From contig JAIXQP010000042.1 of assembly GCA_027485675.1 (NCBI GenBank), positions 62,001 through 126,000 of the forward strand: a stretch of 64,000 bases of DNA. Direction: 5' to 3'. The stretch is from Terriglobales bacterium (GTDB lineage: Bacteria; Acidobacteriota; Terriglobia; Bryobacterales; Bryobacteraceae). Positions within the stretch are counted from its first letter, which is position 1, and each line of letters opens with the position of its first letter. The notes under the pieces are model-generated. The model saw only the letters and a list, made by a program, of their open reading frames with translations, was not told the DNA's origin and made no database searches. This document shows, one piece after another, positions 15,665 to 32,917 of this stretch. A program made the position numbers and the translations under genes.

Positions 15665-16639
15665 GTGCGACTGCTTTTTCTTCTTCTCTGTGCGCTGCCC
15701 CTGGCAGCCGAAATTGGCTTCGTTTCGCAAAACAGCGGGGTGGCCGCGAGCCTCCGCGGACTCGCCGCCGTCAGCGATCAGGTGGCCTGGGCCAGTGGCA
15801 CCGGCGGCACCGTCCTGTTGACCACGGACGGCGCCACTTGGCAGCGCCGCCCCGTCCCCGGCGCCGACGCCCTCGATTTCCGCGACATCGAAGCCTTTAA
15901 CGCCCGCCGCGCGGTGGTTCTGGCCGCCGGCGAAGGCGAAAAATCCCGCCTCTACCGCACCCTGGACGGGGGCGCCACCTGGGAACTCCTCCGCACCAAC
16001 CCCGACCCCAAAGGCTTTTGGGATGCCATCGCCTTCTGGAACGAACAGCGCGGGGTGCTGATGGGCGACCCCGTCGATGGCCGCTTTGTCATCGAGACCA
16101 CCGAGGACGGGGGCAAGACCTGGCAACGGCGCACCACCCCGCCTGCCCTGCCGGGCGAAGGCGGCTTTGCCGCCAGCGGCACCTGTCTCGTCGTCCGCGG
16201 CAAGCGCGAAATCTGGTTCGCCACCGGCGCCGCCCGGGTCTTCCGCTCCCTCGATGGCGGTCAGTCCTGGACGGTTTCCGAAGCGCCTCTCCGCCAGAAA
16301 GAAGCCTCCGCCGGTATCTTCTCTCTCGCCCTCGGACCCGGTTCCACCGCGATTGCCGTCGGCGGCGACTACCGCAAGCCTCAGCAAGCCACCCAAACCG
16401 CGGCCTTCTCGCGGGATCAAGGCGCCACCTGGACCGCTGCGGCCGGCTCCGGCGGCTACCGCTCGGGCGCCGCGTTCTTCAACCGCTCCACCGTCGTCGC
16501 CGTCGGCACCTCCGGCGCCGATCTCTCCACCGACGGCGGCAAAACCTGGCGGCCCGTCAATGCGGAAAACTATAACGCCGTCCAGCGCGGCTGGGCCGTC
16601 GGCCCCAAAGGCCGCATCGCCCGGGTCACTCTTCGATGA
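15665..16639 (+). CDS. exported Ycf48/BNR-type beta-propeller protein
   Basis: A 324-residue protein with a signal peptide (LLFLLLCALPLAAE). The body has repeated blades of the form DGGxTW or DGATW (DGATWQRR, DGGATWELL, DGGKTWQRR, DGGQSWTV, DQGATWTA, DGGKTWRP), the mark of BNR/Ycf48-like propellers. Ycf48 assists photosystem II assembly in cyanobacteria, but acidobacterial homologues are common exported proteins without known role. The GTG at 15665 is chosen because it begins the signal peptide; longer frames overlap the previous gene. TACCCT lies 7 bases upstream. It overlaps the methyltransferase gene by ATGA. Confidence 0.8.
   Translation: MRLLFLLLCALPLAAEIGFVSQNSGVAASLRGLAAVSDQVAWASGTGGTVLLTTDGATWQRRPVPGADALDFRDIEAFNARRAVVLAAGEGEKSRLYRTLDGGATWELLRTNPDPKGFWDAIAFWNEQRGVLMGDPVDGRFVIETTEDGGKTWQRRTTPPALPGEGGFAASGTCLVVRGKREIWFATGAARVFRSLDGGQSWTVSEAPLRQKEASAGIFSLALGPGSTAIAVGGDYRKPQQATQTAAFSRDQGATWTAAAGSGGYRSGAAFFNRSTVVAVGTSGADLSTDGGKTWRPVNAENYNAVQRGWAVGPKGRIARVTLR
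15714..15727 (+). repeat. copy of interspersed 14-mer TTGGCTTCGTTTCG
   Basis: Exact copy inside the Ycf48-like gene, read here as codons for IGFVS. The frame differs from the copies on the minus-strand genes. Confidence 0.65.
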
Positions 16640-17352
16640 GGCACCGGCGCCAGCCGACCCGCAACCGCACCGGCTGGACCTCCAACGTGCTCAACGAGTT
16701 GAGCGAACTTTTCGTCGCGCATGCCGCCACCGTCCAGCGCCCCGTGCTCGATATCGGCGCCGCCTACGGGGTCGCCACCCTCCCCGCCCTGGCCGCCGGC
16801 GCCACCGTCTACGCTAACGACGCCGACCCCACCCATCTCGCCGCCCTCGAAGCTGCCACCCCGCCCGCCCACCGGCCCCGCCTCCGTCTCCTCCCCGGCC
16901 GCTTCCCCCAGGACCTCGACCTTCCCCCCGCCAGCCTCGACGCCGTCCACGCCTCGAACGTCCTCCACTTCCTCACCGGCAACGAACTTACCGCCGGCCT
17001 CGCCCTCATCCGCCGCTGGCTCGCCCCCGGCGGCCGCCTCTTCATCCAGGCCGGCACGCCCTATCAACAACCCTTCCAAGCCTTCATCCCGATTTACGAA
17101 GAACGGGTCCGCACCGGCGTCCCTTGGCCCGGCTGGATCGAAGATACCCGCGCCATCTCCACCCACAAAAAGCTAGGTCAAATTCCCCGTTCGCTCCACC
17201 TTCTCGATGAACAGGTGCTGACCAATCTCCTCACCACCGCCGGCCTCGCCGTCGAGCACTCCTGGACTTACTGCCGCCGCGACCTGCCCAGAAGTATGCA
17301 TCTTAATGGGCGCGAGGGAGTGGGATGCATCGCATCCTCCTATACTGAGTAG
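16636..17352 (+). CDS. class I SAM-dependent methyltransferase
   Basis: A 238-residue cytoplasmic protein with the SAM-binding motif I VLDIGAAYGVATLP at about residues 36-49, an acidic post-motif (ANDADPTHL) and the region LDAVHASNVLHFL typical of motif II-III. The C-terminal half (AFIPIYEERV, PRSLHLLDEQV) should give acceptor specificity, which I cannot assign. The start overlaps the stop of the propeller gene (ATGA), so the two are co-translated. The last bases overlap a TATACT box that may start the next gene. Confidence 0.82.
   Translation: MRHRRQPTRNRTGWTSNVLNELSELFVAHAATVQRPVLDIGAAYGVATLPALAAGATVYANDADPTHLAALEAATPPAHRPRLRLLPGRFPQDLDLPPASLDAVHASNVLHFLTGNELTAGLALIRRWLAPGGRLFIQAGTPYQQPFQAFIPIYEERVRTGVPWPGWIEDTRAISTHKKLGQIPRSLHLLDEQVLTNLLTTAGLAVEHSWTYCRRDLPRSMHLNGREGVGCIASSYTE
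17341..17346 (+). promoter_or_regulatory. TATACT box 6 bases before the receptor start, leaderless-type
   Basis: TATACT matches the -10 consensus in five of six positions and ends six bases before the ATG at 17353. With usual spacing, transcription would start at or next to the ATG. No Shine-Dalgarno sequence is present. The identical box and spacing occurs at 31918. Confidence 0.5.
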
Positions 17353-20300
17353 ATGTATCGCTTCTTGGGGAGCTTCCCTCTGCGTCCGTTTGTACTCTCG
17401 CTTGCGCTTTCGATCTCGGCCCTCGCCCAGACCTCCACCACCCAATTCTCTGGAACCGTCTCCGATTCGAGCGGCGCCACTGTCCCCGGCGCCACTGTCG
17501 TCGCCACCAACGAAGATACCGGCCTCAAGTATACACTCGCCACGACTGACGCGGGTCTGTTCGCCTTCCCCTCGATCCCCGTAGGCTCCTATAGTCTCAA
17601 TATCGAAAAGTCCGGCTTCAAGAAGTTCCAGCTCTCGAAGATCGTTCTCCAGATCAATACCCCCGCCACGATCAACGCCACCCTCGAAATCGGTTCCGCC
17701 GCGGAAACCGTCCAGGTGGAAGCCACCGCCGAAATCCTCCAAACCACCGGCGCCACCATCGGCAACGTCATCGAGCGCAAGGCCATCGAAGCCCTTCCGC
17801 TCAACGGCCGGAATCCCCTCAATCTCCTGATCTACGAACCCGGCGTCGTCCAGCGCTCCGGCGGCACCGTCAGCGTCAATGGCTCCCGCACCGGCGCCGT
17901 CAACGTCACCATCGACGGCATCGAAGCCAACGAAAGCACCAACCCGAACCCCGTCAACAACATCTTCCGCCTCAATCCGGATAACGTCCAGGAGTTCAAG
18001 GTCACCACCTCGAACCCCTCCGCCGAGGAGGGCCGCAACTCCGGCGCCAACATCTCCGTCGCCACCCGTGGCGGCACCAACCAGTTCCACGGCACCGCCT
18101 TCCACTTCTTCCGCAATACCGCCCTGAACTCCAACGAGTTCTACTCGAAAGCCCAGGGCCTCGAAAAGCCCATCATCAAGCTCAACCAGTACGGCGTCGA
18201 ACTCGGCGGCCCCATCCGCCGGAACAAGACCTTTTTCTTCGGCTCCTGGCAAGGGCAACAGGTCAACTTCGCCGACCCCATCGACAAGGCCTTCGGCGAG
18301 TCGGTCGACCTGTATAACCAAATCGCTCTCACCGGCGTCTTCCGCTACTTTGTCGTCGACCAGCGCAGCCCCTTCACCGTCAACGGCCAGCGCATCACGC
18401 AGAACACCCCCATCCTCGTCGACCGCGCCACCGGCAACCTGGCCCCCGGCGTCCGCGCATGCGCCAGCCCCACCGACGCCAACTGCGTCGCCAGCTTCAA
18501 CATCTTCCAGAACGACCCCCTCCGCCGCGGCATCGACCCTGCCGTCCGGGGCGTCCTCGGCGCATACCCGGCGCCCAATCAGTTCGCCTCCGGCGACGGC
18601 CTCAACACCGGCAACTACGTCTGGAATTCGCCCTTCCAGGTTCGCGGCCCGCAGTACCTCGGCCGCATCGACCACGTCATCAACGATAAGCACAACCTCT
18701 TCGGCCGCATCCTCGGGGCCGAACAGAACACCCTCGGCGGTGACCCCCTCAACGGCCGCCCCCAGGTTCTCCCCGGCTTCCCGGCCCGCGGTGAAGTCTT
18801 CCGCCCGGCCTACAACGCCGCCGTAGGCCTTCGCAGCGTGGTAACCCCCCGCCTCGTCAACGAGTTCACGGTCGGCTACTCCCGCTTCGACTTCCTCTTC
18901 ACCCAGGGCGAAGCCAACCCGCTGTTCCCCAACACGCCCCGGTTCACCTTCAACAACTCGGACGTGGACTACACGGCCTCGCCCCGCACCCAGCGCGCCG
19001 TCAACACCTATCAGCTCATCAACAATCTGACGTACATCGCCGGCGCTCACGTCATGAAGTTCGGCGGCAACGTCCGTATTTACCAGCACAATGACCGGCG
19101 CGGCGACGTCGGCGGCGTCTCTCTGACCCCGGCCATCTCCCTCTCCCGCACCGTCCGCCCGCCTACCGGCTTTACCTTCCCGGCCGTGGCCACGGCCACC
19201 ACCCCCGGCATCGCTTCGAACGACCTGAACCGTCTGCAGGGCATGGTCAACGATTTGCTCGGCATCCCCGCGCAGATCTCCCATAACTTCATCGGCGATC
19301 TCCGCAGCGACACCTTCCTGCCCTTCCAGACCGGCGACAACCAGGTCACCCTCTGGGCCCAGGGCCAACGCACCAAGCAGTTCAACTTCTTCGCCCAGGA
19401 CGATTGGAAGATTCGCAAGAACTTCAGTGTTTCCTACGGCGTCCGCTGGGAGTTGAATCCGCCCCCGCGCGAAGCCGGCGGCCGCACCTACGTCCCGGAT
19501 AAGAACATCGACGGCAGCCAGGGCCTCGTTACCTTCGTCCAGGCCGAACGCTGGTATAAGAACTGGAACGCCGGCGCCCTTGCGCCACGCATCGCTCTGA
19601 CGTGGTCTCCGGGAGACTCCGGCAAGACCGTCATCCGCACCGGCTATACCATGGCCTTCGATCCCATCGCCACCTTCCAGGTCACCTCGGTCGCCTCCGC
19701 CGTGCCCGGCCAGATCTACCGCTGCACCGCCACCATCGGCGGCGCCACCACCCCCGGCTGCCAGAGCGCTCCGAACGTTCGCCTCAGCGATCTGCCCACG
19801 CAACTCGCGCCGCCCAATGCCAAACCCTCCAGCCAGTTGACCCCGCCGCTGGCCACCCAGAACACCGCGCCCCCGGCCCGCATCTTCGATCCCAATCTGA
19901 AGCTGCCCACGGTCCACATGTGGAACCTCACCATCCAGCAGGACCTCGGCAAAGGCTACATCGGCAGCGTCGGCTACGTCGGCCGCCGCGGCACCCGGCT
20001 CTATCGCAGCTGGGACGTCAACCAGATCGACGCCCGGCCCATCCTGCCGAGCTTCCTCGCCATGCAGCGCAACGTCGCCCTCGGCAACGGTTGCCGCGCC
20101 GACGGCACCTTGGCCAACGGCGCCCCCTGCGCCGGCGCCAACGCCGTGCCGCTCATCCAGCAAGGCATCATGACCAGCGCCTTCGCCAACTCCACGGCCT
20201 CCACCTCGGACCTCAGCCCCGCGCAGAACGCAGCCGGCAACATGGCCGTCCGCCTGGAGCAGACCACCCTCGCCGCCCGTCTCCGCCCCAATCAACAGTT

Positions 20301-21165
20301 CGCCCAGATCCTGCTGCTCGATAACGGCGCCGACTCCATCTATCACGGCTTGCAGATGACCCTCCGCAAGCGCTTCGATTCGGCCGGCCTCCTCTTCAGC
20401 GGCGGCTACACCCTCTCGAAGTCCATCGATAACCTCTCGGTGGACCCCGTCGCCGCTACCACCGGTGGCGGCCTCACCACCACCGGCGCCCGCACCCCTG
20501 CCGACGGCCGCAACTACGATAACGAACGGGCCCGCAGCGACTTCGACCAGCGCCACGTCCTGAACTTCAGCGGCATCTACGAACTTCCCTTCGGCCGCGG
20601 CAAGAGCCTGTTCCGCAACGCCAATCGCGCCGTCAACGCCGTCATTGGCGGATGGAGCCTCAACACCATCTACACCTACCAGTCCGGCGAACCGTTCACG
20701 ATTCGCTCCGGCTTCCTCACCGCTAACGGCACGGCCCAAAGCCGCGCCGCGCTCGCCCCCGGCGTCACGGAACTGCCCAGGCCGCAGTTGCAGAACAAGG
20801 CCGGCGTCATCGGCCCGGTCTTCTTCCAGGACGCCAGCATGTTCGTCAACCCCGGTCCCGGCGAACTCGGCTTCGGCCGCAACCTGTTCCAGGGTCCGTC
20901 GTACTGGAACGTGGACCTTGGCATCTCGAAGGGCTTCCAATTCTCCGAGCGGATCCGCTTGACCTTCCGGACGGAGATGTTCAACGCCCTGAACCACGCC
21001 AACTTCCGCAACCCGCGCGATGCCTCTGTCGGCAGCCCGGCCATCAACTCGAACGTGTTTGCCCAGGCCTGCTGCGTGACGCTTTCGACGGCCAGCTCCT
21101 CCACCACCAACCAGAACGGCGAAAGCTGGCGCGTCATTCAGTTCGCGCTCAAGCTGGCGTTCTAG
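17353..21165 (+). CDS. TonB-dependent receptor with carboxypeptidase-regulatory-like domain (Oar-like)
   Basis: A 1270-residue outer-membrane receptor. A signal peptide covers about residues 1-26. A carboxypeptidase-regulatory-like beta domain follows at about 30-115 (FSGTVSDSSGATVPGATV). The plug region includes LPLNGRNPLNLL and SVNGSRTGAVNVTIDG, and a long 22-strand-type barrel ends in the aromatic FALKLAF typical of outer-membrane proteins. Such receptors are greatly expanded in Acidobacteria and are thought to import large or complexed substrates, possibly glycans; the ligand is unknown. The gene is preceded by TATACT but no ribosome site. It overlaps the convergent deacetylase gene by 17 bases. 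Confidence 0.9.
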   Translation: MYRFLGSFPLRPFVLSLALSISALAQTSTTQFSGTVSDSSGATVPGATVVATNEDTGLKYTLATTDAGLFAFPSIPVGSYSLNIEKSGFKKFQLSKIVLQINTPATINATLEIGSAAETVQVEATAEILQTTGATIGNVIERKAIEALPLNGRNPLNLLIYEPGVVQRSGGTVSVNGSRTGAVNVTIDGIEANESTNPNPVNNIFRLNPDNVQEFKVTTSNPSAEEGRNSGANISVATRGGTNQFHGTAFHFFRNTALNSNEFYSKAQGLEKPIIKLNQYGVELGGPIRRNKTFFFGSWQGQQVNFADPIDKAFGESVDLYNQIALTGVFRYFVVDQRSPFTVNGQRITQNTPILVDRATGNLAPGVRACASPTDANCVASFNIFQNDPLRRGIDPAVRGVLGAYPAPNQFASGDGLNTGNYVWNSPFQVRGPQYLGRIDHVINDKHNLFGRILGAEQNTLGGDPLNGRPQVLPGFPARGEVFRPAYNAAVGLRSVVTPRLVNEFTVGYSRFDFLFTQGEANPLFPNTPRFTFNNSDVDYTASPRTQRAVNTYQLINNLTYIAGAHVMKFGGNVRIYQHNDRRGDVGGVSLTPAISLSRTVRPPTGFTFPAVATATTPGIASNDLNRLQGMVNDLLGIPAQISHNFIGDLRSDTFLPFQTGDNQVTLWAQGQRTKQFNFFAQDDWKIRKNFSVSYGVRWELNPPPREAGGRTYVPDKNIDGSQGLVTFVQAERWYKNWNAGALAPRIALTWSPGDSGKTVIRTGYTMAFDPIATFQVTSVASAVPGQIYRCTATIGGATTPGCQSAPNVRLSDLPTQLAPPNAKPSSQLTPPLATQNTAPPARIFDPNLKLPTVHMWNLTIQQDLGKGYIGSVGYVGRRGTRLYRSWDVNQIDARPILPSFLAMQRNVALGNGCRADGTLANGAPCAGANAVPLIQQGIMTSAFANSTASTSDLSPAQNAAGNMAVRLEQTTLAARLRPNQQFAQILLLDNGADSIYHGLQMTLRKRFDSAGLLFSGGYTLSKSIDNLSVDPVAATTGGGLTTTGARTPADGRNYDNERARSDFDQRHVLNFSGIYELPFGRGKSLFRNANRAVNAVIGGWSLNTIYTYQSGEPFTIRSGFLTANGTAQSRAALAPGVTELPRPQLQNKAGVIGPVFFQDASMFVNPGPGELGFGRNLFQGPSYWNVDLGISKGFQFSERIRLTFRTEMFNALNHANFRNPRDASVGSPAINSNVFAQACCVTLSTASSSTTNQNGESWRVIQFALKLAF

Positions 21166-21871
21166 CCCAGTAGCACTCCGGCCGCGAAGCGTAGCACCGC
21201 TCCATCGCGGCCGGAGACGGAAACAGATCGGCCAGTTGCGTCGCGTAAGCCCGCAACGGCTCCAACCCCGGCGGCGGTAACCGCCGGACGCAAGTCAAAC
21301 CAGGAAACGGCAAGGCGGCCCCCCAGGCCGCCTTTACCGTCTCTCGCGGAAACGAACCCAGATACGTCTTCACGTAATGCGCCGCGAAGTAGCTGCGCCA
21401 GTCCGGCGCCGGCCGCAAGCCCAGCGTGAACTCCACCTGGCCCCGGACGAACGCATACGGGCGGTCTTCGTAGTAGAGCAACCGTACGGGCGGCACTAGC
21501 GCCGTCGCCGCGTCCCGCAGCTCCCGGTGGTCCACATGGTTCCCCACGCCCATCGGCGCCAACACCAGTTCGGGATCCAGCTCGTCGAGCAAACTCGCCA
21601 GCGCACGTTGGCTTCGTTTCGTATTTCGCACGGGTCCGCTCACGATCTCGACAAAGCTGCGGAACCGGTCGTCGCGCAGCCCCAGGTGCAGGCACTCCGC
21701 GCCCAGCCGCCGGCAGGCCTCGCGGTCCTCGGCCCGGCGGGCGTGGAACAGGCGGTCGCCGGAGCTGAAAAAGGTCGCAATCACTGGCCGCTGCACTTGG
21801 GAAAGTAGTGAGGCGCAGGAGAGCACTCCGTCGTCCAAATGCGGCGACAGGCAGAGCGTTACCCGTGCCAT
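21149..21871 (-). CDS. PIG-L family deacetylase
   Basis: A 240-residue zinc hydrolase of the PIG-L/LmbE family, which removes N-acetyl groups from GlcNAc-containing molecules (as in mycothiol or bacillithiol synthesis) or acyl groups from antibiotics. The zinc motif PHLDD is at residues 10-14 and the third ligand in NHVDHRE near residue 110. The start at 21871 puts this motif at its normal place; the frame upstream to 21976 lies inside the previous gene. It is the last gene of a seven-gene minus-strand run and overlaps the previous gene by 13 bases. In that setting it may deacetylate a sugar or aglycone intermediate. Confidence 0.85.
   Translation of the reverse strand: MARVTLCLSPHLDDGVLSCASLLSQVQRPVIATFFSSGDRLFHARRAEDREACRRLGAECLHLGLRDDRFRSFVEIVSGPVRNTKRSQRALASLLDELDPELVLAPMGVGNHVDHRELRDAATALVPPVRLLYYEDRPYAFVRGQVEFTLGLRPAPDWRSYFAAHYVKTYLGSFPRETVKAAWGAALPFPGLTCVRRLPPPGLEPLRAYATQLADLFPSPAAMERCYASRPECYWARTPA
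21608..21622 (+). repeat. copy of interspersed 14-mer TTGGCTTCGTTTCG
   Basis: One of four exact copies in the window (others at 15714, 23455, 23660). It lies inside the PIG-L coding region and extends to TTGGCTTCGTTTCGTA, as in the copy at 23660. Confidence 0.7.
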
Positions 21872-22572
21872 AGCGCCGCTCCCACGCCGAAGCCCATCGT
21901 CATCACCAGCCGCTTTTCCCGCCCCGCCGGCGGATAGCCCCGCGCCGTCAAGACCGCGTCGTTCACCACCACCCAATCCGCCTTCCCGAACACCGTCTCC
22001 ACCGGACCATACAACCCAGGATACGTCGACGACTCCGCGACGCCCTCGGCGTTGATCCGGTTCGGCAAGCCGAGGACGACGCCATCATGCAGACCCGCCG
22101 CGGCCAGCGCTTCGCCGACGAAGGCGCGGAGCTGCTCCCGCCCCTCGGCCTCCGGCAGCGCCGCCCGGCCATAGGGCAGCCGCCGGGGAAAGACGAGCGA
22201 GAGGGATGGCGTCATCAGCTTGAGCTGCGTTTGGCCGAGGTCGATCGCCACCGGCCGCCGCCAGCCGTACTCGGCCCAAATCGCCTCCGCCCCGCGCCGC
22301 GCGCAGAACGGGTCCGGCGGCAGCAGATGGTGGGGGAATGCGAGCGCCGCGGCCTCGCCCCCGGCAATCACCAGCTCGGTAAATCCCGCCGCCCGCTCCA
22401 GCGTCTCGCCGTCCGCGTTCTCCGCCGTGCCCGCGTGCAGCCGGCGCAGGAACTCGGCGAGCCCGGCGTAGTAAGCCGGCTTGTCGTCCCGCAACTGATA
22501 GAGTGTCGTATGCCGGGCGAGGCCGTGCCAGATCTCAAGCCCGGTCAACCCGGGGTGCTGATAGACGGTCAA
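21859..22572 (-). CDS. half-length ROK/ASKHA-like sugar-kinase-related protein
   Basis: A 237-residue protein. The likely start is the TTG at 22572, in a TTGA overlap with the GT2 stop; longer frames lie inside the GT2 gene. Residues 1-105 match nothing I know. From 107 on it resembles the N-terminal lobe of ROK kinases: phosphate-1 motif DLGQTQLK at 111-118, GLPNRINAEG, then VVNDAVLTA. It stops right after GFGVGAALW, which matches the phosphate-2 glycine motif, so the usual C-terminal lobe with the catalytic and zinc motifs is absent. It may be a sugar-binding or accessory protein rather than an active kinase. Overlaps on both sides show it belongs to the cluster. Confidence 0.6.
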   Translation of the reverse strand: MTVYQHPGLTGLEIWHGLARHTTLYQLRDDKPAYYAGLAEFLRRLHAGTAENADGETLERAAGFTELVIAGGEAAALAFPHHLLPPDPFCARRGAEAIWAEYGWRRPVAIDLGQTQLKLMTPSLSLVFPRRLPYGRAALPEAEGREQLRAFVGEALAAAGLHDGVVLGLPNRINAEGVAESSTYPGLYGPVETVFGKADWVVVNDAVLTARGYPPAGREKRLVMTMGFGVGAALWHG

Positions 22573-23492
22573 GCGAGCGGCTCCTTGGTCTCCTCCACCG
22601 GCCGCCACGTGGGGCACGGCGTCTTCGCCCAACGAGAATAGTAGATCCGCTGCGCGTGGTAGGCAGCCTTGCAGAGCAGCAGCGCCGCTTGGAAGATGCC
22701 GTAGAGCAGCTTTTCTCCCCAAGGCGCCTGGCGGAGCCGCGTCCGGTCCAGGCGCCGGCCTCGCGGTTTCTCGCGCGGAAAGAAGTAGGCCATCCGTTCG
22801 AGCTCCAGGCGCATGCGCTGATACTTCCGGAACATGCCGCGCAGCGTCTCCGGGGGCCGGTATTGGATGCCGGCCGGGGTGCAGAGCAGCGCCTCCGGCG
22901 CCCGGCCCAGCGAAAGGAAGATGTCGTCGCAGCGAATGCCCGCCTCCAGGTGGAGAAACGGATTGTCCGCGGCCGGGTTCCAACGCAGCTCCGCCGGCCG
23001 CGGGATGTGCCAGCGCCGGATGGCGAAGCACTGGCCGTTACAGTACAGGCGCTTGGTCTGGTAGCCTTCGCGCAGGTTGAAGTAGTAGAGGGCGGTGGCG
23101 AGTGGCGTCCGGCGCAGCGGCCGCAGCGGGTACTTTTCGGCGTAGGCGATCTCCACCTCCGGATGCTCCGCCATGGCCCGGCTCAGCTCGGTCACTGTGT
23201 GCGGATGGATCAGAATGTCCGCGTCCGTGAAGAGAATCCAGGGCGCTTCCGGCCGCGCCTCGACGAGTGCGCGTTGCGCCTCGACGATGCCGCCGCGGGT
23301 CTCCCACACGGTCACATCCGTCTCGCCGGCCAGCAGCGCCGCCGTTTCGTCTTCGTTGTCGTTGAGCAGGAGGTGCAGTTCGAAGCGCAGGCCGCAGGCG
23401 GCCTCGGCTCGCTCGACGGACACCCGCAGGGAGGCAAGAAGCGCCCGGATGTTCTTGGCTTCGTTTCGTGCGGTGATGCCAATTGGAATCAT
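22569..23492 (-). CDS. family 2 glycosyltransferase
   Basis: A 307-residue GT-A fold transferase. The start at 23492 (MIPIGITARNEAKNIRALL) gives the normal GT2 opening. The metal-binding DAD (LFTDADILIH) lies near residue 93 and the acceptor region has CDDIFLSLG with an acidic pair. A hydrophobic stretch near the C terminus (KLLYGIFQAALLLCKAAYHAQ) may associate with the membrane. It likely adds a sugar to a lipid, protein or small-molecule acceptor. It overlaps the GT1 gene by ATGA and the ROK-like gene by TTGA. Confidence 0.87.
   Translation of the reverse strand: MIPIGITARNEAKNIRALLASLRVSVERAEAACGLRFELHLLLNDNEDETAALLAGETDVTVWETRGGIVEAQRALVEARPEAPWILFTDADILIHPHTVTELSRAMAEHPEVEIAYAEKYPLRPLRRTPLATALYYFNLREGYQTKRLYCNGQCFAIRRWHIPRPAELRWNPAADNPFLHLEAGIRCDDIFLSLGRAPEALLCTPAGIQYRPPETLRGMFRKYQRMRLELERMAYFFPREKPRGRRLDRTRLRQAPWGEKLLYGIFQAALLLCKAAYHAQRIYYSRWAKTPCPTWRPVEETKEPLA
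23455..23469 (+). repeat. copy of interspersed 14-mer TTGGCTTCGTTTCG
   Basis: Exact copy plus one base (T) near the 5' end of the GT2 gene, where the minus strand reads RNEAK. This peptide is itself common in GT2 enzymes, so this copy could be coincidental. Confidence 0.6.
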
Positions 23493-24589
23493 GGCGCCAA
23501 CCCGGCGATCAGCCGCGCTGCCGCGCGCGCGCCGTCCGTCTGATATGTCGCCGAGAGCCGCGCCATCGCCGCGCGCTCCGGCCCGTCCTCCAGCAGCCGC
23601 GTCAGATCGTGTCGAATCTCTTCGACGGTCGCTGTCCGCAAATCCGTCACCAACCCGATTTGGCTTCGTTTCGTAAAGTACGCCTGATGAAACTGGTCGT
23701 TGCACATCGGCGAGAGCAGCATCGGCACATTGGCCGCAATCGCTTCCATGAAGGAGTTCGCTCCGCCGTGCGTGACGAAGACGCGGGCCCGCCGCAGCAG
23801 TTCGAGTTGCGGGGCATACCGGTAGACGTGGCAGCCGGGAAACGGCCCCGGCAGGTCGCCTACCGAAAGCACCAGCTCCGCGCCGGGGTTGGCCTCGGCC
23901 AGCTTGGCGAACAGCTCCGGCCAGTGATAGATCTGGCTGCCGAAGGAGGCGTAGATCACGGGCCGCCCGTCTGGCAGCGGCTGCAGCGCCGCCTCGTCCC
24001 CGCGTGCCCGCAGCGGAAACGAGGGGCCCACCAAGTGGACGCCCTCCACCGCGCCGCAGAGGGCCTCCGTGGTGAAGGCGATGTTGAGGTGCGGCGAAAG
24101 CCGGTCGCAGCCGGAGTACTGCCCGGGAGGACGCTGCAAGCCGCGAACTGTTTGCAGAAGGTCACTGTCCAGGTCTGTCGGGATGACCGGGTTCAAGGAG
24201 TTCGACACCGCGGCCCAAGGTAACTCCTCGGCCTCCGCCGCCAGCGAGGCCGCGTAGTAAAGCGGATCCACCACCACCACATCGGTATCGCCGAGACACC
24301 GCTGAAGCCGAGCCGTCTGGCCGTCCAGATCGTCCAGCAGCAACTGCCCAATCCATTGCGCCAGCCGCTCCCGGTCCTGAATCAGTTCCACCAGCGCCGC
24401 CCCGTGGGTCGGCCGCTCCGAGCTGCCGGGCAGCGGCCGGAACGGCAGCCCCGCCGCCGCGCACTGGGCCGCGATGTCGCCCGGCGCCAGCACCTCCACC
24501 GTGTGCCCCAGCTCCTGTAGCGCCTGCGCCGGGCCGATGTACGGGTTCACGTGGCCCTTCTCGGGGATCAGTACGAACGCGACTCTCAT
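23489..24589 (-). CDS. family 1 (MGT/UGT-like) glycosyltransferase
   Basis: A 366-residue GT-B enzyme of the type that glycosylates macrolides, polyketides, carotenoids and other small molecules. The N-terminal half begins VAFVLIPEKGHVNPYI with the GHxNP pattern. The C-terminal half holds the nucleotide-sugar site: VIYASFGSQ, then VFVTHGGANSFMEAI with the GT1 signature HGG, then MCNDQFHQA. The start at 24589 overlaps the stop of the asparagine-synthetase-like gene by ATGA. Its type points to a small-molecule acceptor and so to secondary metabolism rather than wall polymers. Confidence 0.88.
   Translation of the reverse strand: MRVAFVLIPEKGHVNPYIGPAQALQELGHTVEVLAPGDIAAQCAAAGLPFRPLPGSSERPTHGAALVELIQDRERLAQWIGQLLLDDLDGQTARLQRCLGDTDVVVVDPLYYAASLAAEAEELPWAAVSNSLNPVIPTDLDSDLLQTVRGLQRPPGQYSGCDRLSPHLNIAFTTEALCGAVEGVHLVGPSFPLRARGDEAALQPLPDGRPVIYASFGSQIYHWPELFAKLAEANPGAELVLSVGDLPGPFPGCHVYRYAPQLELLRRARVFVTHGGANSFMEAIAANVPMLLSPMCNDQFHQAYFTKRSQIGLVTDLRTATVEEIRHDLTRLLEDGPERAAMARLSATYQTDGARAAARLIAGLAP
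23660..23675 (+). repeat. copy of interspersed 14-mer TTGGCTTCGTTTCG
   Basis: Exact copy extended to 16 bases (with TA), inside the 3' part of the GT1 gene, where the minus strand reads TKRSQ, the same peptide as in the PIG-L copy. Confidence 0.7.
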
Positions 24590-26214
24590 ATACCTTCCCA
24601 ACGCGTAAACCAGGTCAAGGTAGCCAGCAGCCGGAACTGCAATCCCGTCTCCCGGTCGTCGCGCGGCGGCCCCATCGCCCCGACGCGATCGGCGTCGACA
24701 TACGGCTCAAGCAACTCGGCGCGCTCCTGCCACGCCTGCCGAAATAGCCGGTGCACCGCTTCGCGGCCCGCGAGGTTCTTGGTCAACGCCGACTTCGGCC
24801 GCCACGCAATCTCGTCCGGCAGCACCGTCGCCGCCGCCCGGCGCAGCAGCCGTTTGCCGAGCGCCTCCTCCGGCGCGGCCGCATCGGCCAGGGCGAGGAC
24901 GGTTGGGTCCGCGAAGGGCACACGCCCCTCAACCGAATGGGCCATCAACTGTACGTCGCCGTTGTGCAGGAGCCGCGCGAGCCAGCGCTGCCGGATCAGG
25001 TACGACATCGCTCGCAACTGCCCGCCCGGCGTGGTCCAACGGTGGCCCGCGGCCTCCGCTTCGGCCTGATACTTGGCCGCGAAATGCGCCGGGCCATCCA
25101 TCTGCCGCAGCGGCACGGCGCCGAAGAAATCGAGCAGCGGGCGGGGTGAGGTGATCCGCGCCGGATCGAGCAGAAACCCGTAGCCGTAGTGCGTCTCGTC
25201 CGCGGCATCGCCCACCAGCACGGCCTTGCAGTGGGGCGCCGCCGCTTCGGCGAGCAGGTTCTGCGAGACCTCTTGCTCCCAGGCCGCGATGTGGTCGTTG
25301 GCCCAGAGCGTCCGCCGCAGCGCGGCTTCGTAGTCATCAGGCGAGACCAGCGTCAACGGATGGCCCGCCGCCTCGGCCGCTTGCTTCGAGAAGGGCACGT
25401 CGTCGCTCTTCACGATCAGCGAATCGGAGTAGTCCATCGCGCCGTAGTCGATGGTGAACGCCGGCAGCGGCGGCTCGGCCAGCGCGGCGAGGAGGCTGGA
25501 ATCGACGCCGCCTGAAAGGAACAAGCCTGCCGGGGTGCTCGTCCGCACAGCGCGGCGAAGCGCGGTTAGCAGGTCTTCGTTCCGCGTGGCGCTCCGGTAG
25601 GCGGTGGTTCCGTGCCGGGTCCGGTGGTGGCCAGCCGGCAGCCGTCGCAGGTTGGCGAACGGGCTCAGCGCGAAGTACGGCGCCGTCAGGTGTTCGGCCA
25701 CGCCCTCTTCGCTGGGGCGGAAGGGGACCACGCCGGTCTCGAGCAACGGCCCGGCTTCGGAGCAGAACGCGAACCACCCGGGCCCTTCGTGATAAACGAA
25801 CGGCTTCACCCCGAGCGGGTCCACGGCGGCCAGATAGTCGCCGGTCACGTCATCCCACAGGAACAGCGCGAACATCCCTTCGAAGCAGGTTAGTGCCGCC
25901 GGCCCCCAGGTGAGCAGGGCCGCGAAGGCCACCTCCGTATCGGTCTCGGTGGTGAACGGATACCCCGCCAGTTGCTTCCGCAACTCGCGATGGTTATAGA
26001 TCTCGCCGTTGAAGAGCAGCGTGAACCGCCCATCGGAGAGCGGCAACGGATGCGGCCGCGGGTCCACCAGCGCCAGGCGCGTCTGCGCCAGCGTCGCCCG
26101 TTCCGTCACCAGCGTCCCCGCGCTGTCCGGACCCCGGTGCCGCAGTCGAGCGGCGAACCGGGCGGCCAGCGCCGCGTCCCCCGGCGGACCGATCAACCCG
26201 GCAATGCCGCACAT
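24586..26214 (-). CDS. asparagine synthetase (glutamine-hydrolysing)-like amidotransferase
   Basis: A 542-residue two-domain enzyme. The N-terminal glutaminase has the nucleophile Cys2 (MCGIAGLIG), the segment RHRGPDS and LFNGEIYNH. The C-terminal ATP-PP domain has the loop LSGGVDSS near residue 235 and GDAADE near 340. AsnB enzymes adenylate a carboxylate and pass ammonia to it; relatives also build lasso peptides, beta-lactams and amidated sugars. The position among glycosyltransferases and a radical SAM enzyme suggests amidation of a pathway intermediate, but simple asparagine synthesis is possible. It overlaps the preceding gene by 22 bases and the GT1 gene by ATGA. Confidence 0.88.
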   Translation of the reverse strand: MCGIAGLIGPPGDAALAARFAARLRHRGPDSAGTLVTERATLAQTRLALVDPRPHPLPLSDGRFTLLFNGEIYNHRELRKQLAGYPFTTETDTEVAFAALLTWGPAALTCFEGMFALFLWDDVTGDYLAAVDPLGVKPFVYHEGPGWFAFCSEAGPLLETGVVPFRPSEEGVAEHLTAPYFALSPFANLRRLPAGHHRTRHGTTAYRSATRNEDLLTALRRAVRTSTPAGLFLSGGVDSSLLAALAEPPLPAFTIDYGAMDYSDSLIVKSDDVPFSKQAAEAAGHPLTLVSPDDYEAALRRTLWANDHIAAWEQEVSQNLLAEAAAPHCKAVLVGDAADETHYGYGFLLDPARITSPRPLLDFFGAVPLRQMDGPAHFAAKYQAEAEAAGHRWTTPGGQLRAMSYLIRQRWLARLLHNGDVQLMAHSVEGRVPFADPTVLALADAAAPEEALGKRLLRRAAATVLPDEIAWRPKSALTKNLAGREAVHRLFRQAWQERAELLEPYVDADRVGAMGPPRDDRETGLQFRLLATLTWFTRWEGI

Positions 26215-26813
26215 AGGGCCAGCTCCTGCCGGGTCCGCTCCAGAATATCCGGGCCAGGCACCAGCGTCGGACGTTTGGGAATCGCGGGCAGCCCCAACTC
26301 CGCAGCCAGCGCCCGCAGCGCCCGTTTGTCGGGGTCTGGTTGCTCAATGGTTACCGCTTGAAAGGGCAGATGCAGCCGCACCCCGGCATGGGCGAAACAC
26401 GCCCGCGTCAACGGCAACAGGTCACAACTCGTCTCGCCGCGGAAGACCTGGTCGGCCGCGTCGCCGCCCATCACCTCCGCCACGCCCGCGTCCCGCAACC
26501 CTTCGGCGAGCAGCAGCTTCGACACCGGATGCAGGTTATAGATCGGCGTCCGCGTCACCTGCAAGAAACGCCCCAATGCGGCTTCGAGGTCCGGCGCGCG
26601 GAACACCGTCAACGGCACGGCGAACCGCTCGGCCAGCGCCTGCGTCCGTTCGAGTTCGCAGTAGCCGGCAATGCCGGTGGCGAGCGTATAGCCGCGCACG
26701 GGCCGGCCCAATTCCTGCAGCAGCCGCACCAACACCCACGAATCCAGGCCGCCGCTGACGGCCACCGCCTCCGTGGCGGGCAATGCCTGCAGCAGCGTGT
26801 CGCGAAGGGTCAT
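26193..26813 (-). CDS. stand-alone asparagine-synthetase-type ATP-PP domain protein
   Basis: A 206-residue protein that is only the synthetase half of an AsnB-like enzyme. It has the PP-loop SGGLDS at residues 20-25 and GGDAADQ at 116-122, matching GDAADE in the full enzyme next door. There is no glutaminase domain. It should adenylate a carboxylate or similar group and use free ammonia, an amine, or ammonia from its neighbour. Start at 26813 is fixed by the ATGA overlap with the radical SAM gene. A split or paired ligase with the downstream AsnB-like protein is an attractive idea but unproven. Confidence 0.75.
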   Translation of the reverse strand: MTLRDTLLQALPATEAVAVSGGLDSWVLVRLLQELGRPVRGYTLATGIAGYCELERTQALAERFAVPLTVFRAPDLEAALGRFLQVTRTPIYNLHPVSKLLLAEGLRDAGVAEVMGGDAADQVFRGETSCDLLPLTRACFAHAGVRLHLPFQAVTIEQPDPDKRALRALAAELGLPAIPKRPTLVPGPDILERTRQELALCAALPG

Positions 26814-27655
26814 GCGGTGAGGGTGACGAGCGTCTCCCGCTTGGTCCGGATGTCCGCCGGACTCAACTGCCGGTGCGTATCCAGGCCGGCCTGGCCGCCG
26901 TTGCACAGGAAGCAGGAGTGCAGCGGCTCGCTCTGCGTCAGGTGCGCTTGAATGCGGCGGGCGAGCGCCGCGGCGTCGGGGTCGTCCACGGGCACGCCGT
27001 CTTCGGCGAAGCGGGGCCCATCGACGGCGAACTTCTGCACGTACTGCGGGCGCGTGCAGGAGTAGAAGCGCCCGTTCTTGATCGTGTTGCAGCGGTGGCG
27101 GATCCAGCAATCGGCGAAGGTCTCTTTGGCCTGCTCCGCGGTGGCCCGGGCGGTGCGGTCGAGGCAGGTGAACTTATCCTGCATCTTCCAGCTCACTTCA
27201 ATGCCGCGCGCCGCCGCCTGTTTGGCGATATACCGGATCAACGGCTTCGGCAGCGCCGGCTCGGGGTAGAGCGAAACCGAGATCATCTGAATGCAGTCCC
27301 AGCTTTGCGGCGAAAGCTTTTCGATCAACAGCGCGTTCGTCGTCAACTGAATCCGGGGCCCTACCTTCAGCCGGTGGGCGATGGTCAACAGCGTTTCGAG
27401 CTCCGGATGCAGCAGCGGTTCGCCGCCGACGATCTTTACGAACTGCGGCTCCACCACGCGCCGCACGAGCAACAGATCCTGTTCAAACTGCGCCGGGTCC
27501 GCGCACCACTTCTTCAGGATCGGCGAATACGAGCAGCAGTGGTCACAGCGAAGATTGCAATGGTCCGTGACGTGATACTCGAGCGCTCTTGTCTGCACTC
27601 GTCCGCTGACTATCGGGTACGGCTCAGAGGCCTGCTCCATGACCGAAGATAGCAT
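26810..27655 (-). CDS. radical SAM protein with extra C-terminal cysteines
   Basis: A 281-residue enzyme with the radical SAM cluster motif C33-x3-C37-x2-C40 (HCNLRCDHC) and the SAM-binding GGEPLLHPE near residue 77. After the barrel, cysteines occur as C-x5-C-x10-C and later C-x2-C (LHSCFLCNGG), a layout suited to an auxiliary iron-sulfur cluster of SPASM or twitch type. Reaction and substrate are unknown. It starts six bases after the dnaE stop with GAGG upstream (an ATG at 27640 is a weaker alternative) and opens the seven-gene run. Confidence 0.85.
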   Translation of the reverse strand: MLSSVMEQASEPYPIVSGRVQTRALEYHVTDHCNLRCDHCCSYSPILKKWCADPAQFEQDLLLVRRVVEPQFVKIVGGEPLLHPELETLLTIAHRLKVGPRIQLTTNALLIEKLSPQSWDCIQMISVSLYPEPALPKPLIRYIAKQAAARGIEVSWKMQDKFTCLDRTARATAEQAKETFADCWIRHRCNTIKNGRFYSCTRPQYVQKFAVDGPRFAEDGVPVDDPDAAALARRIQAHLTQSEPLHSCFLCNGGQAGLDTHRQLSPADIRTKRETLVTLTA

Positions 27656-27661
27656 GGCGCC

Positions 27662-31150
<3,489 letters not shown>

Positions 31151-31180
31151 GTTGGGGCACTGCGGGCGGGGGAGACTACC

Positions 31181-31188
31181 AGTATACT
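31181..31188. promoter_or_regulatory. palindromic AGTATACT, -10 box for both divergent genes
   Basis: AGTATACT is its own reverse complement, so TATACT is offered on both strands, toward dnaE and toward the VIT transporter. Starts lie 30-40 bases away on each side. The -35 regions are poor. Confidence 0.45.
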
Positions 31189-31214
31189 TTCGAGGGGCCC
31201 CGGAGGCCCTGTCC

Positions 31215-31910
31215 ATGCGGGCTCTCCATTTTGAAAAGCATCGAACGGATCGCATCGGATGGCTGCGCGCCGCTGTGTTGGGAGCGAATGACGGCATCGT
31301 CTCGACGGCCAGTCTGGTGGTGGGGGTTGCGGCGGCGCATGCGGTGAACAGCGACATTCTCGTTACTGGCGTGGCCGGCCTCGTGGCCGGGGCCATGTCG
31401 ATGGCGGCTGGCGAATACGTCTCGGTCAGCTCGCAGGCTGATACCGAGAGCGCCGATCTCAACCGCGAGCGCGCCGAGTTATCGGCTAATCCCGAGTGGG
31501 AGCGGGGCGAACTCACCGCGATCTATGTCAAGCGCGGACTGGACGAGGCGCTCGCCCGGCAAGTGGCGGAGCAGTTGATGGCGCGCGATGCCGTTGGCGC
31601 GCACTACCGCGACGAATTGGGGATCTCCGATACCACCGCGGCCCGGCCGCTGCAGGCGGCGCTGGCGTCGGCCGCCACCTTTGCCGTGGGCGCCGCGATG
31701 CCTTTGGGCATGGTGCTGGTTGCGCCCGCGGGGGCGTTAATTCCGGCGGTGGTGGCCGCGTCGATCGTCTTCCTCGCGCTGTTGGGAGGCCTGGGTGCTT
31801 ATGCGGGCGGGGCGCCCGTCGTCAAAGCGGCGGCGCGCGTGACGTTCTGGGGCGCGGCGGCGATGGCGCTGACGGCGTGGGTGGGCGCGATGTTCGGCGC
31901 GGCTGTGTAG
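31215..31910 (+). CDS. VIT/CCC1-family iron or manganese transporter
   Basis: A 231-residue inner-membrane protein. The N-terminal half has the family signature LGANDGIVSTASLVVG and the segment AGAMSMAAGEYVSVSSQAD. A cytoplasmic acidic helical metal-binding region follows (ERGELTAIYVKRGLDEALA), then three more membrane spans. Members move Fe2+ or Mn2+ out of the cytoplasm. The start at 31215 is supported by GGAGG eight bases upstream; a longer frame overlaps the dnaE start. Confidence 0.9.
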   Translation: MRALHFEKHRTDRIGWLRAAVLGANDGIVSTASLVVGVAAAHAVNSDILVTGVAGLVAGAMSMAAGEYVSVSSQADTESADLNRERAELSANPEWERGELTAIYVKRGLDEALARQVAEQLMARDAVGAHYRDELGISDTTAARPLQAALASAATFAVGAAMPLGMVLVAPAGALIPAVVAASIVFLALLGGLGAYAGGAPVVKAAARVTFWGAAAMALTAWVGAMFGAAV

Positions 31911-31917
31911 CTCCGGC

Positions 31918-31923
31918 TATACT
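31918..31923 (+). promoter_or_regulatory. TATACT box 6 bases before the acetamidase start, leaderless-type
   Basis: TATACT, then six bases, then ATG at 31930: the same box and spacing as at 17341. No Shine-Dalgarno sequence lies between the previous stop and this start. Confidence 0.5.
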
Positions 31924-31929
31924 CCCGAT

Positions 31930-32910
31930 ATGCGAATCCTCCTGCTGCTGGCCTGCTGCTTCTCTCTCCCGCTGGGTGCGGAAACCTACTACCGCACCTT
32001 CTTCCACAAGCACCCTGTGAAGCAGAAGATCCGGGCCGGCGAGCGGGTCACCACCCGCACCGTCGACTCAAGCGGTAAGGATGAAAAGAGCCAGGAGGTC
32101 GCCGAAGCGCCCAACCCGCTCACCGGCCCTTTCTTCGTCGAAGGCGCCGAGCCCGGGGACGCTATCGCTATCCACTTCCACAAGGTCCGCCTCAACCGGG
32201 ACTGGGGCTACTCCGGCTACCGTCTCGGCCTGTTCGCCATGACTCCGGAGTACATCGAAAAGACCTATCCGCCCGTCTACAAGCGCGACCTGGTGCGCAA
32301 AGGCTACGCCCATTATGTGCCCTGGGATCTCGACCGCGAGAAGGGCCTTGTCCGGCTTCGCGAACCGGGCAGCAAGGCCATCGTGATGGAGTTCCCCGCG
32401 AAGCCGATGCTCGGCTGCGTGGGCGTAGCCGCGGCCGGCGATTGGGCGCCCACGTCCAGCCCCTCCGGCCCCTACGGCGGCAACATCGACTACAACCGCA
32501 TCGGCGAAGGGGCCACGGTCCTGCTGCCGGTCTACCACCCCGGGGCGCTGGTGTTCCTGGGTGACGGCCACGCCCTGCAGGGCGACGGCGAGCCGACGGG
32601 CAACGGCGTTGAAACGTCAATGGACGTCGAGTTCTCCGTCACCGTCCGCAAGGGCCTGAAGCTCACCGGTCCTCGGGTGGAGACGGAAGACGCCATCATC
32701 AGCATCGGCTCCCAGCCTGAGTTCCAGAGCTCGCTCGACCGGGCCCTTGAAATGGCCACCACCGATATGGTGCAGTACCTGATGACGGAGCATGGTCTTG
32801 AAGAGTGGGCCGCCCATCTGCTTATTGCCTTTCAGGGTAAGTATGAGGTGGTGACGGCCCGGGGATCCATGGCGCTCCTGATTCCGCGGAGCGCCTTGCG
32901 AAAACGATAG
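31930..32910 (+). CDS. exported acetamidase/formamidase-family protein
   Basis: A 326-residue protein with a signal peptide (LLLLACCFSLPLGAE). The family regions are present: GPFFVEGAEPGDAIAIHF, MLGCVGVAAAG, GPYGGNIDYN and VFLGDGHALQGDGE with its acidic metal-site residues. Acetamidase/formamidases hydrolyse short amides to ammonia and acids; the exported acidobacterial forms are not characterised. The end lies seven bases from the convergent receptor gene. Confidence 0.87.
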   Translation: MRILLLLACCFSLPLGAETYYRTFFHKHPVKQKIRAGERVTTRTVDSSGKDEKSQEVAEAPNPLTGPFFVEGAEPGDAIAIHFHKVRLNRDWGYSGYRLGLFAMTPEYIEKTYPPVYKRDLVRKGYAHYVPWDLDREKGLVRLREPGSKAIVMEFPAKPMLGCVGVAAAGDWAPTSSPSGPYGGNIDYNRIGEGATVLLPVYHPGALVFLGDGHALQGDGEPTGNGVETSMDVEFSVTVRKGLKLTGPRVETEDAIISIGSQPEFQSSLDRALEMATTDMVQYLMTEHGLEEWAAHLLIAFQGKYEVVTARGSMALLIPRSALRKR

Positions 32911-32917
32911 GCCGCTT

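Follow-up and report, generated by a model that had tools for sequence, protein, structure and literature searches.

A conserved, accessory seven-gene operon of uncultured Acidobacteriota and its possible amino-sugar-type product

Introduction

HygY (hygromycin B), SpeY (spectinomycin), and BtrN are twitch radical S-adenosylmethionine (SAM) enzymes with sugar or cyclitol carbinol substrates, and antibiotic pseudoaglycone deacetylases act on N-acetylglucosamine-type units. Here we compare with these systems a set of seven genes found in a 64,000-nucleotide stretch of contig JAIXQP010000042.1 (assembly GCA_027485675.1, Terriglobales bacterium), called the window below. The genes lie on the minus strand at 21149..27655 and encode, in order, a radical SAM enzyme (gene 1), a stand-alone ATP-pyrophosphatase-type ligase (gene 2), an AsnB-like amidotransferase (gene 3), glycosyltransferases of families GT1 and GT2 (genes 4 and 5), a ROK-like protein (gene 6), and a PIG-L deacetylase (gene 7). 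The set is a real, selected, accessory biosynthetic operon. At a probability of roughly 45%, its six-gene core, with the deacetylase as an option, makes an epimerised, amidated, sometimes N-deacetylated amino-sugar-type glycoside. A literature search found no precedent for aminoglycosides with radical SAM enzymes in Acidobacteria or for Sulfopaludibacter clusters of this kind and, as the initial annotation of the window had supposed, no named pathway with this gene set.

Conservation and selection of the gene set

Homology searches covered Acidobacteriota genomes and a plasmid collection, together with one gene 2 pattern scan of genome contigs. The same gene order was found in 10 genomes, the window's included, across four genomic contexts. 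Loci with the set are the window, L002 (G001), L003 (G017), L004 (G006), L005 (G004), L006 (G005), L007 (G010), L027 (G014), L008 (G501), and L090 (G458), and the relatives are labeled Acidobacteria, Candidatus Sulfopaludibacter, or Bryobacterales; several of the carriers are soil bacteria not yet in culture. The L007 locus is cut by a contig end within the GT1 gene, which leaves nine complete loci. Four genomes carry the set between dnaE and a TonB-type gene (context a), four carry it downstream of an HpaI-type aldolase gene that overlaps the radical SAM start by 1 nucleotide (context b), and L008 and L090 represent one further context each (c and d). The window has an HpaI-type gene of its own, which is only 24% identical to the aldolase gene of context b (Table 1). 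L090, from another genus, is a full seven-gene locus and among the most divergent found.

In the window, the list of open reading frames (ORFs) confirms the seven genes at the place and on the strand first given, and the six junctions have the lengths originally claimed: from gene 1 to gene 7, they overlap by 4, 22, 4, 4, 4, and 13 nucleotides, and none is without overlap. Among the relatives measured (L090 aside), the overlap of genes 2 and 3 is 22 nucleotides in eight of eight, and that of genes 6 and 7 is 13 nucleotides in all four measured loci with a PIG-L gene. Exceptions are few: genes 5 and 6 overlap by 1 nucleotide in L005, L006, and L027; L027 also has a 1-nucleotide overlap between genes 4 and 5 and, with the start chosen, a gap of 20 nucleotides between genes 1 and 2; and L008 has a gap of 370 nucleotides between genes 1 and 2, an 8-nucleotide overlap between genes 4 and 5, and an interrupted AsnB frame containing an ambiguous base. 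Because relatives share the order and most of the overlaps, the arrangement in the window is not due to chance.

Six of the nine complete loci have a PIG-L gene, and none turned up there in L005, L006, or L027. The core therefore comprises six genes, and PIG-L, first listed simply as a member of the cluster, is an optional one. Ratios of nonsynonymous to synonymous substitution rates (dN/dS) were 0.04 to 0.20 for all seven genes (window versus L002, L003, and L004; 21 comparisons), those against L004 being rough, since dS there exceeds 1. Purifying selection acts on all seven genes.

The dnaE gene ends at 27662, 6 nucleotides before the first candidate start of gene 1 (ATG 27655) and 21 before the second (ATG 27640), which fits the relatives better. 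With dnaE only 6 nucleotides away, the set has no space for a promoter of its own in the window genome and probably rides on dnaE transcription; the pathway is best read as constitutive. At the other end, the 3′ end of the PIG-L gene lies inside the tail of a convergent TonB-type gene. Since all genes overlap and both neighbors are this close, a precursor-peptide gene, of which the initial annotation likewise saw no sign, could not fit within the set, and a carrier-protein gene is absent too. No RNA family reached its gathering score in window positions 16000-33000. A long frame antisense to the TonB-type gene (Table 1) is probably not a gene; such frames are frequent at high G+C.

Table 1. 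Coordinates of the seven genes and of other features mentioned in the text
Feature	Position	Strand	Family or structural match
Gene 1, radical SAM enzyme, twitch type, HygY/SpeY-related; predicted sugar-carbinol epimerase	26810..27655	-	PF04055, 7wzv
Gene 2, compact amide ligase of the ATP-pyrophosphatase (asparagine-synthetase) type, stand-alone and lacking a glutaminase domain	26193..26813	-	PF00733
Gene 3, AsnB-like glutamine-dependent amidotransferase with Cys2	24586..26214	-	GATase_7 + Asn_synthase, TIGR01536
Gene 4, GT1 glycosyltransferase, MGT/YjiC-like	23489..24589	-	PF00201
Gene 5, GT2 glycosyltransferase with DAD motif	22569..23492	-	PF00535
Gene 6, ROK-like, landmarks in circularly permuted order, TTG start at 22572	21859..22572	-	
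Gene 7 (optional), PIG-L family N-deacetylase	21149..21871	-	PF02585
TonB-type gene, 1270 amino acids, convergent to gene 7	17353-21165		
Antisense open frame, 1274 amino acids	17173-20997	-	
HpaI-type gene of the window	14314-15144	-	
HpaI-type aldolase genes of context b	L005:8293-9114; L006:6834-7655; L027:11813-12592; L007:3-503		
Full seven-gene locus of G458	L090:4757-11779		
Trio of radical SAM enzyme, ligase, and GT1	L128:6819-10353; L129:6964-10273		
Hygromycin-B-like cluster of a Streptomyces plasmid	L132 (NZ_CP016083.1 822488-840523)		
Eroded cluster copies at the dnaE site	L155:5132-5673; L156:935-3367		

The radical SAM enzyme

Pfam and NCBIfam place gene 1 in general terms only (PF04055). 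Its best relative in the PDB is 7wzv, a record with a generic name, which aligns over residues 12-264 of 276 (E 3e-29); a gene 1 profile matches 7wzv over profile positions 3-256 of 272 (E 5e-30). The CxxxCxxC radical SAM motif (C28, C32, and C35) is invariant in nine of nine rows. Four further cysteines (C178, C195, C243, and C246), which we take to be ligands of one auxiliary cluster, are invariant both there and in a seven-row alignment that took in two distant relatives and a Streptomyces homologue, and the same holds for an extra cysteine, C184. This residue, which is serine in 7wzv, precedes the second auxiliary-type cysteine by 11 residues, a spacing shared by the Streptomyces homologue, and presumably matches the position of the hydrogen-donor cysteine of HygY. 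HygY itself is reportedly an epimerase in which mutation of a single cysteine exposes latent dehydrogenase activity, as the title of a 2021 article by Besandre et al. (cited in PMC10991966 and PMC10863075) has it. The extra cysteine at the presumed donor position leads to the prediction of sugar epimerisation, and gene 1, judged by its residues, likely encodes a sugar epimerase. The family originally assigned was right and has now gained specific relatives and a predicted reaction.

The Streptomyces homologue is the only match to gene 1 in the plasmid collection at E ≤ 1e-8 (Streptomyces sp. SAT1, E 2e-17, 28.6% identity). Around it lie genes for APH(7'')-Ia (94.88% identity), for aminotransferases, and for a phytanoyl-CoA dioxygenase, along with galactose genes. 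This cluster, at the end of a linear plasmid (L132 in Table 1), resembles that for hygromycin B, and the homologue is probably HygY-like; its own best solved relative is again 7wzv (E 5e-89).

Ligases, glycosyltransferases, and deacetylase

The family assignment of gene 2 (PF00733, E 1.3e-12) recurs in nine of nine relatives, and SGGxD, GDxAD, K163, and K180 are invariant; its relatives in the PDB are PP-loop enzymes with weak scores. Gene 3 passes the TIGR01536 cutoff (269.1 versus 267.1 bits), keeps both the GATase and Asn_synthase domains, and has Cys2 within MCGIAG in nine of nine rows (L008 aside); its best PDB match is 7ylz, a "hydroxyamidotransferase" (E 3.5e-57). Gene 4 exceeds the PF00201 cutoff (44.7 versus 19.5 bits) and has YjiC and oleandomycin glycosyltransferase structures as its closest solved relatives; TIGR01426 (MGT) matches at E 1e-31, but its 110.3 bits lie below the cutoff of 260. 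Gene 5 passes PF00535 (30.4 versus 23.3 bits) with an invariant D90-A91-D92, and no PDB entry matched its sequence at E ≤ 0.01. Gene 7 reaches 55.1 bits against a PF02585 cutoff of 28.2, and HxDD and HxDH are invariant in five of five cluster rows; its best PDB relatives are the Dbv21 and teicoplanin (Orf2) pseudoaglycone deacetylases.

A reduced relative of the set occurs in G236 and G409 (L128 and L129 in Table 1), which belong to a different family of the phylum and not to the class of the window; there, a radical SAM enzyme (34 to 35% identity), an AsnB-type ligase, and a GT1 enzyme (42 to 43% identity) are adjacent, with the radical SAM gene divergent to the other two. The ligase has no Cys2 and matches gene 2 in both loci, and gene 3 equally well in L128. 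Neither stretch read contains a match to GT2, gene 6, or PIG-L, L129 meeting a contig end beyond the radical SAM gene. The genes after the trio in both loci resemble, by eye, those for what we take to be a lysine 6-aminotransferase and a monofunctional transglycosylase. Recurrence of the trio suggests that the radical SAM enzyme, a ligase, and GT1 form the functional heart of the pathway.

A probable permuted ROK protein

Gene 6 was first described as half of a ROK protein. The ROK kinship stands; the protein makes better sense as an entire ROK whose order is permuted, judging by landmark order and profile scores, and on balance we favor this reading. Domain libraries do not place gene 6: neither Pfam nor NCBIfam reports a ROK match (PF00480 not reported at E ≤ 1), the six PF00480 matches of the window genome (G000) do not include it, and Pfam on four further gene 6 relatives gave no ROK match either. 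After residue 103, gene 6 matches the ROK N-terminal lobe (hhalign E 5e-7 against 24 long ROKs; E 2.4e-10 for this C-terminal part against the N-lobe of 31 short ROKs). The match spans residues 106-235 of 237, so that an N-lobe-then-C-lobe order was not found, and the first 103 residues contain an E-x-x-H-type and a GG motif. All nine gene 6 proteins have the landmarks D-x-G, N-D, G-x-G-x-G, E-x-x-H, and GG in rotated order, the histidine position being H in six, Q in two, and R in one. In gene 6 they stand at 13 (E-x-x-H), 71 (GG), 111 (D-x-G), 204 (N-D), and 227 (G-x-G), and in the short ROK L092 at 147, 199, 11, 107, and 129, respectively, which, counted from D-x-G, gives cyclic distances of 93/23/23/58/40 versus 96/22/18/52/46.

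The alternative is that gene 6 is a ROK N-lobe alone, fused to an unrelated N-terminal segment, with no circular permutation. We regard this as unlikely, and several results weigh on its side. The N-terminal part alone has no significant match (hhalign E 0.04; at most 4.7 bits with a hidden Markov model [HMM]), and a fold search with its poor model gave no usable hit, so that what speaks for permutation is the order and spacing of the landmarks and the profile scores. Rotating gene 6 brings no gain against long ROKs (49.2 versus 49.8 for the native order), and against short ROKs, the rotated local E value (2.5e-10) is about that of the C-terminal part alone. In local mode, 7 of 200 shuffles attain the rotated score, and in each hhalign mode 7 of 19 further rotations of the N-terminal part outscore the natural order; the permutation junction is thus not fixed by these controls. 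In 30 short ROKs, the first four landmark distances range over 87-96, 19-22, 17-19, and 51-53; the gene 6 values for the last three of these (23, 23, and 58) are slightly too large.

Other results argue against a lone lobe. In global mode, rotated gene 6 scores 68.5, which none of 200 shuffles reaches (maximum, 67.7), and the C-terminal part alone scores 64.7. The five landmarks keep near-ROK cyclic distances, which 1,770 of 100,000 shuffles of the N-terminal part equal under limits set post hoc. The N-terminal HMM gave positive scores in 15 of 45 forward matches, of which 13 fall within the final 30% of the ROK, and in 5 of 47 matches to reversed sequences (55 sequences each way). AlphaFold2 folds the whole protein with a predicted local distance difference test (pLDDT) value of 84 and a predicted template modeling score (pTM) of 0.84; the N-terminal part modeled alone falls to a pLDDT of 61.8. 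Foldseek (E ≤ 0.001) returned three matches for gene 6, two chains of 3lm2 (putative kinase) and 4htl (putative N-acetylmannosamine kinase), over 135 to 151 columns at a template modeling score of 0.41 by query length.

A literature search found no precedent for a permuted ROK; one source notes in general terms that circular permutation may link kinase families that share a fold group (PMC1079889). Whether the protein is a kinase is a separate matter. The metal Asp, Asn-Asp, and Glu of gene 6 correspond to residues tested in NagK, and T132V in the GTG phosphate loop of PsNagK abolishes activity (PMC10031466). The equivalent Thr is Phe in all nine gene 6 proteins, so that kinase activity is doubtful and, by the sequence, somewhat improbable at best; the kinase step may not exist. 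The replacement suggests instead a kinase turned into a sugar-binding or substrate-channelling partner.

Distribution and loss

A gene 2 profile matched 112 of 200 family genomes at E ≤ 0.001, only 8 of them above 200 bits, the next best reaching 52 bits. The gene 6 profile matched 8 of 19 genus genomes, one match being the eroded copy of G011; among 396 phylum genomes, it hit just that of the window and, weakly, a single ordinary ROK. The radical SAM profile found 5 of the 396 at E ≤ 1e-15, window included. In the plasmid collection, tblastn gave no match for GT2 (E ≤ 1e-5) or gene 6 (E ≤ 0.01).

A dnaE match is present in 18 of 19 genus genomes, and the dnaE flank was read in five relatives with a similar dnaE. 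At this flank, none of the six core genes has a match in G009, G015, or G016, and a PIG-L gene without the usual ATG stands directly after dnaE (L154, L152, and L153, respectively), which I read as the scar of a lost cluster. Its dN/dS among the three is 0.29 to 0.61, versus 0.15 to 0.20 for intact copies. An independent function for the stand-alone PIG-L after loss of the cluster was considered and rejected, as the usual ATG is gone and dN/dS is raised. The L153 frame is open from a TTG inside dnaE and may be expressed. G012 retains just short pieces of the radical SAM, ATP-pyrophosphatase, and AsnB genes, and G011 retains an open gene 6 frame, a divergent broken radical SAM gene, and an eroded PIG-L. 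The eroded copies L155 and L156 lie at the same dnaE site, the gene 6 frame of L156 being open over 243 amino acids. None of the five genomes has a gene 2 match anywhere.

All nine genomes of the dnaE group (≥84% identity to the window's dnaE) show the set or its remains, four of them intact. The set was therefore probably ancestral in this group and lost repeatedly, a conclusion drawn from presence and remains rather than from a tree. Of the 10 other genus genomes, 4 carry the set at another site.

Proposed pathway and alternatives

The gene set, order, overlaps, selection, family assignments, motif residues, and losses are established directly; the individual reactions, their order, and the product class are what we infer. 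GT1 and GT2 would add sugars, including at least one N-acetylhexosamine, onto an acceptor that primary metabolism supplies. The twitch radical SAM enzyme would take a hydrogen atom from a sugar carbinol carbon, and the conserved cysteine would give one back on the opposite face, yielding the epimer. PIG-L, where present, would strip an N-acetyl group. AsnB, with ammonia from glutamine, and the stand-alone ligase may adenylate carboxylates and form amides, and the ROK-like protein may bind or phosphorylate a free sugar. The proposal of a glycosylated, amidated small molecule holds in part, in that the genes form a conserved, co-inherited glycosylation and amide-forming set; the product would be a small molecule, with a surface glycan as the less probable alternative. 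Tentatively, and with less confidence than in the product class, we go further and regard the operon as a kind of amino-sugar pathway, found in uncultured Acidobacteriota, that has not been described before, with a twitch radical SAM epimerase and two asparagine-synthetase-type ligases at its center, and with a permuted ROK turned sugar-binding or substrate-channelling partner. In this ROK, the old termini would be fused, and the new ones would lie between the second phosphate loop and the E-x-x-H motif that binds sugar.

Several observations weigh against an amino-sugar-type glycoside. An aminocyclitol-forming enzyme and an aminotransferase are absent from the seven genes, and none was recognized beside them by eye. 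Exporter, resistance, and regulatory genes are likewise absent from the seven, the flanks being dnaE and a TonB-type receptor gene and the neighbors again read by eye. In NCBIfam, gene 1 scores best with MoaA and viperin, in both cases just for its N-terminal part and far below cutoff. We take 7wzv to be SpeY, the spectinomycin dehydrogenase, an identity that the literature search did not confirm. The glycosyltransferase encoded next to the Streptomyces homologue is only weakly similar to GT2 (E 2e-4 when the two sequences are compared directly). Finally, five relatives with only scars or eroded remains show that the pathway is dispensable and its product not essential.

The best-surviving rival, improbable in our estimation, takes a cell-surface or exopolysaccharide unit as the substrate of the cluster, with GT2 and GT1 glycosylating, AsnB making uronamides, the radical SAM enzyme epimerising, and PIG-L deacetylating. 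GT2 and AsnB-like amidotransferases occur in polysaccharide clusters too, PIG-L can act on glycans, and expression, attached to dnaE, seems constitutive. Yet no gene for a flippase, a polymerase, an initiating transferase, or export was recognized in or near the set (contexts read by eye, two neighbors domain scanned), GT1 is of the MGT/YjiC type, which glycosylates small aglycones, and PIG-L is closest to antibiotic pseudoaglycone deacetylases. Much less probable is a system in which the radical SAM enzyme, the ATP-pyrophosphatase ligase, and the AsnB-like enzyme mature a ribosomal peptide. Radical SAM enzymes and AsnB-type cyclases are common in such systems, and NCBIfam returned a lasso-cyclase match for AsnB and several peptide-maturase matches for gene 1; however, the former (109.1 bits) is far below its cutoff of 525, the latter cover only the N-terminal part far below cutoffs where 7wzv aligns over nearly the full length, AsnB retains Cys2, and the window set has no space for a precursor gene. 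Detoxification, in which GT1 would inactivate an antibiotic while the other genes scavenge sugars, is least credible, for although MGT-type enzymes inactivate macrolides and the top NCBIfam matches of GT1 are TIGR01426 and NF033129, both fall short (110.3 versus 260 and 61 versus 700 bits) and the fixed co-inheritance with two amide ligases and a radical SAM enzyme would be left unexplained.

If an amino-sugar-type glycoside is indeed the product, aminoglycoside-type radical chemistry extends to uncultured Acidobacteriota. It also yields a single-residue prediction: the enzyme with Cys184 should be an epimerase and its Cys-to-Ala variant a dehydrogenase. A permuted ROK, if true, would be a clean natural example of a circularly permuted sugar-kinase fold. 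The divergent L090 locus is useful in structure alignments. In this clade, a single site holds an intact copy in some genomes, an eroding one in others, and none in the rest, which lets the loss of an accessory pathway be studied.

Comparison with known systems

Gene 1 resembles 7wzv and the APH(7'')-linked Streptomyces gene, and through them HygY and SpeY, in near-full-length homology and the same cysteine layout. In contrast to the SAT1 cluster, the seven genes here include no aminotransferase, alcohol dehydrogenase, or galactose genes. Dbv21 and teicoplanin Orf2 are the closest solved relatives of gene 7, but here glycopeptide genes are absent and the deacetylase is optional. Compared with ROK sugar kinases (NagK, N-acetylmannosamine kinase, and short ROKs such as L092), gene 6 keeps the metal-binding Asp, the catalytic Asn-Asp, and the E-x-x-H-type and GG motifs, whereas its order is rotated, the GTG Thr is Phe, and PF00480 does not detect it. 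Gene 3 shares the Cys2 glutaminase and synthetase domains of AsnB-like amidotransferases but is paired here with a second, glutaminase-less ligase, gene 2.

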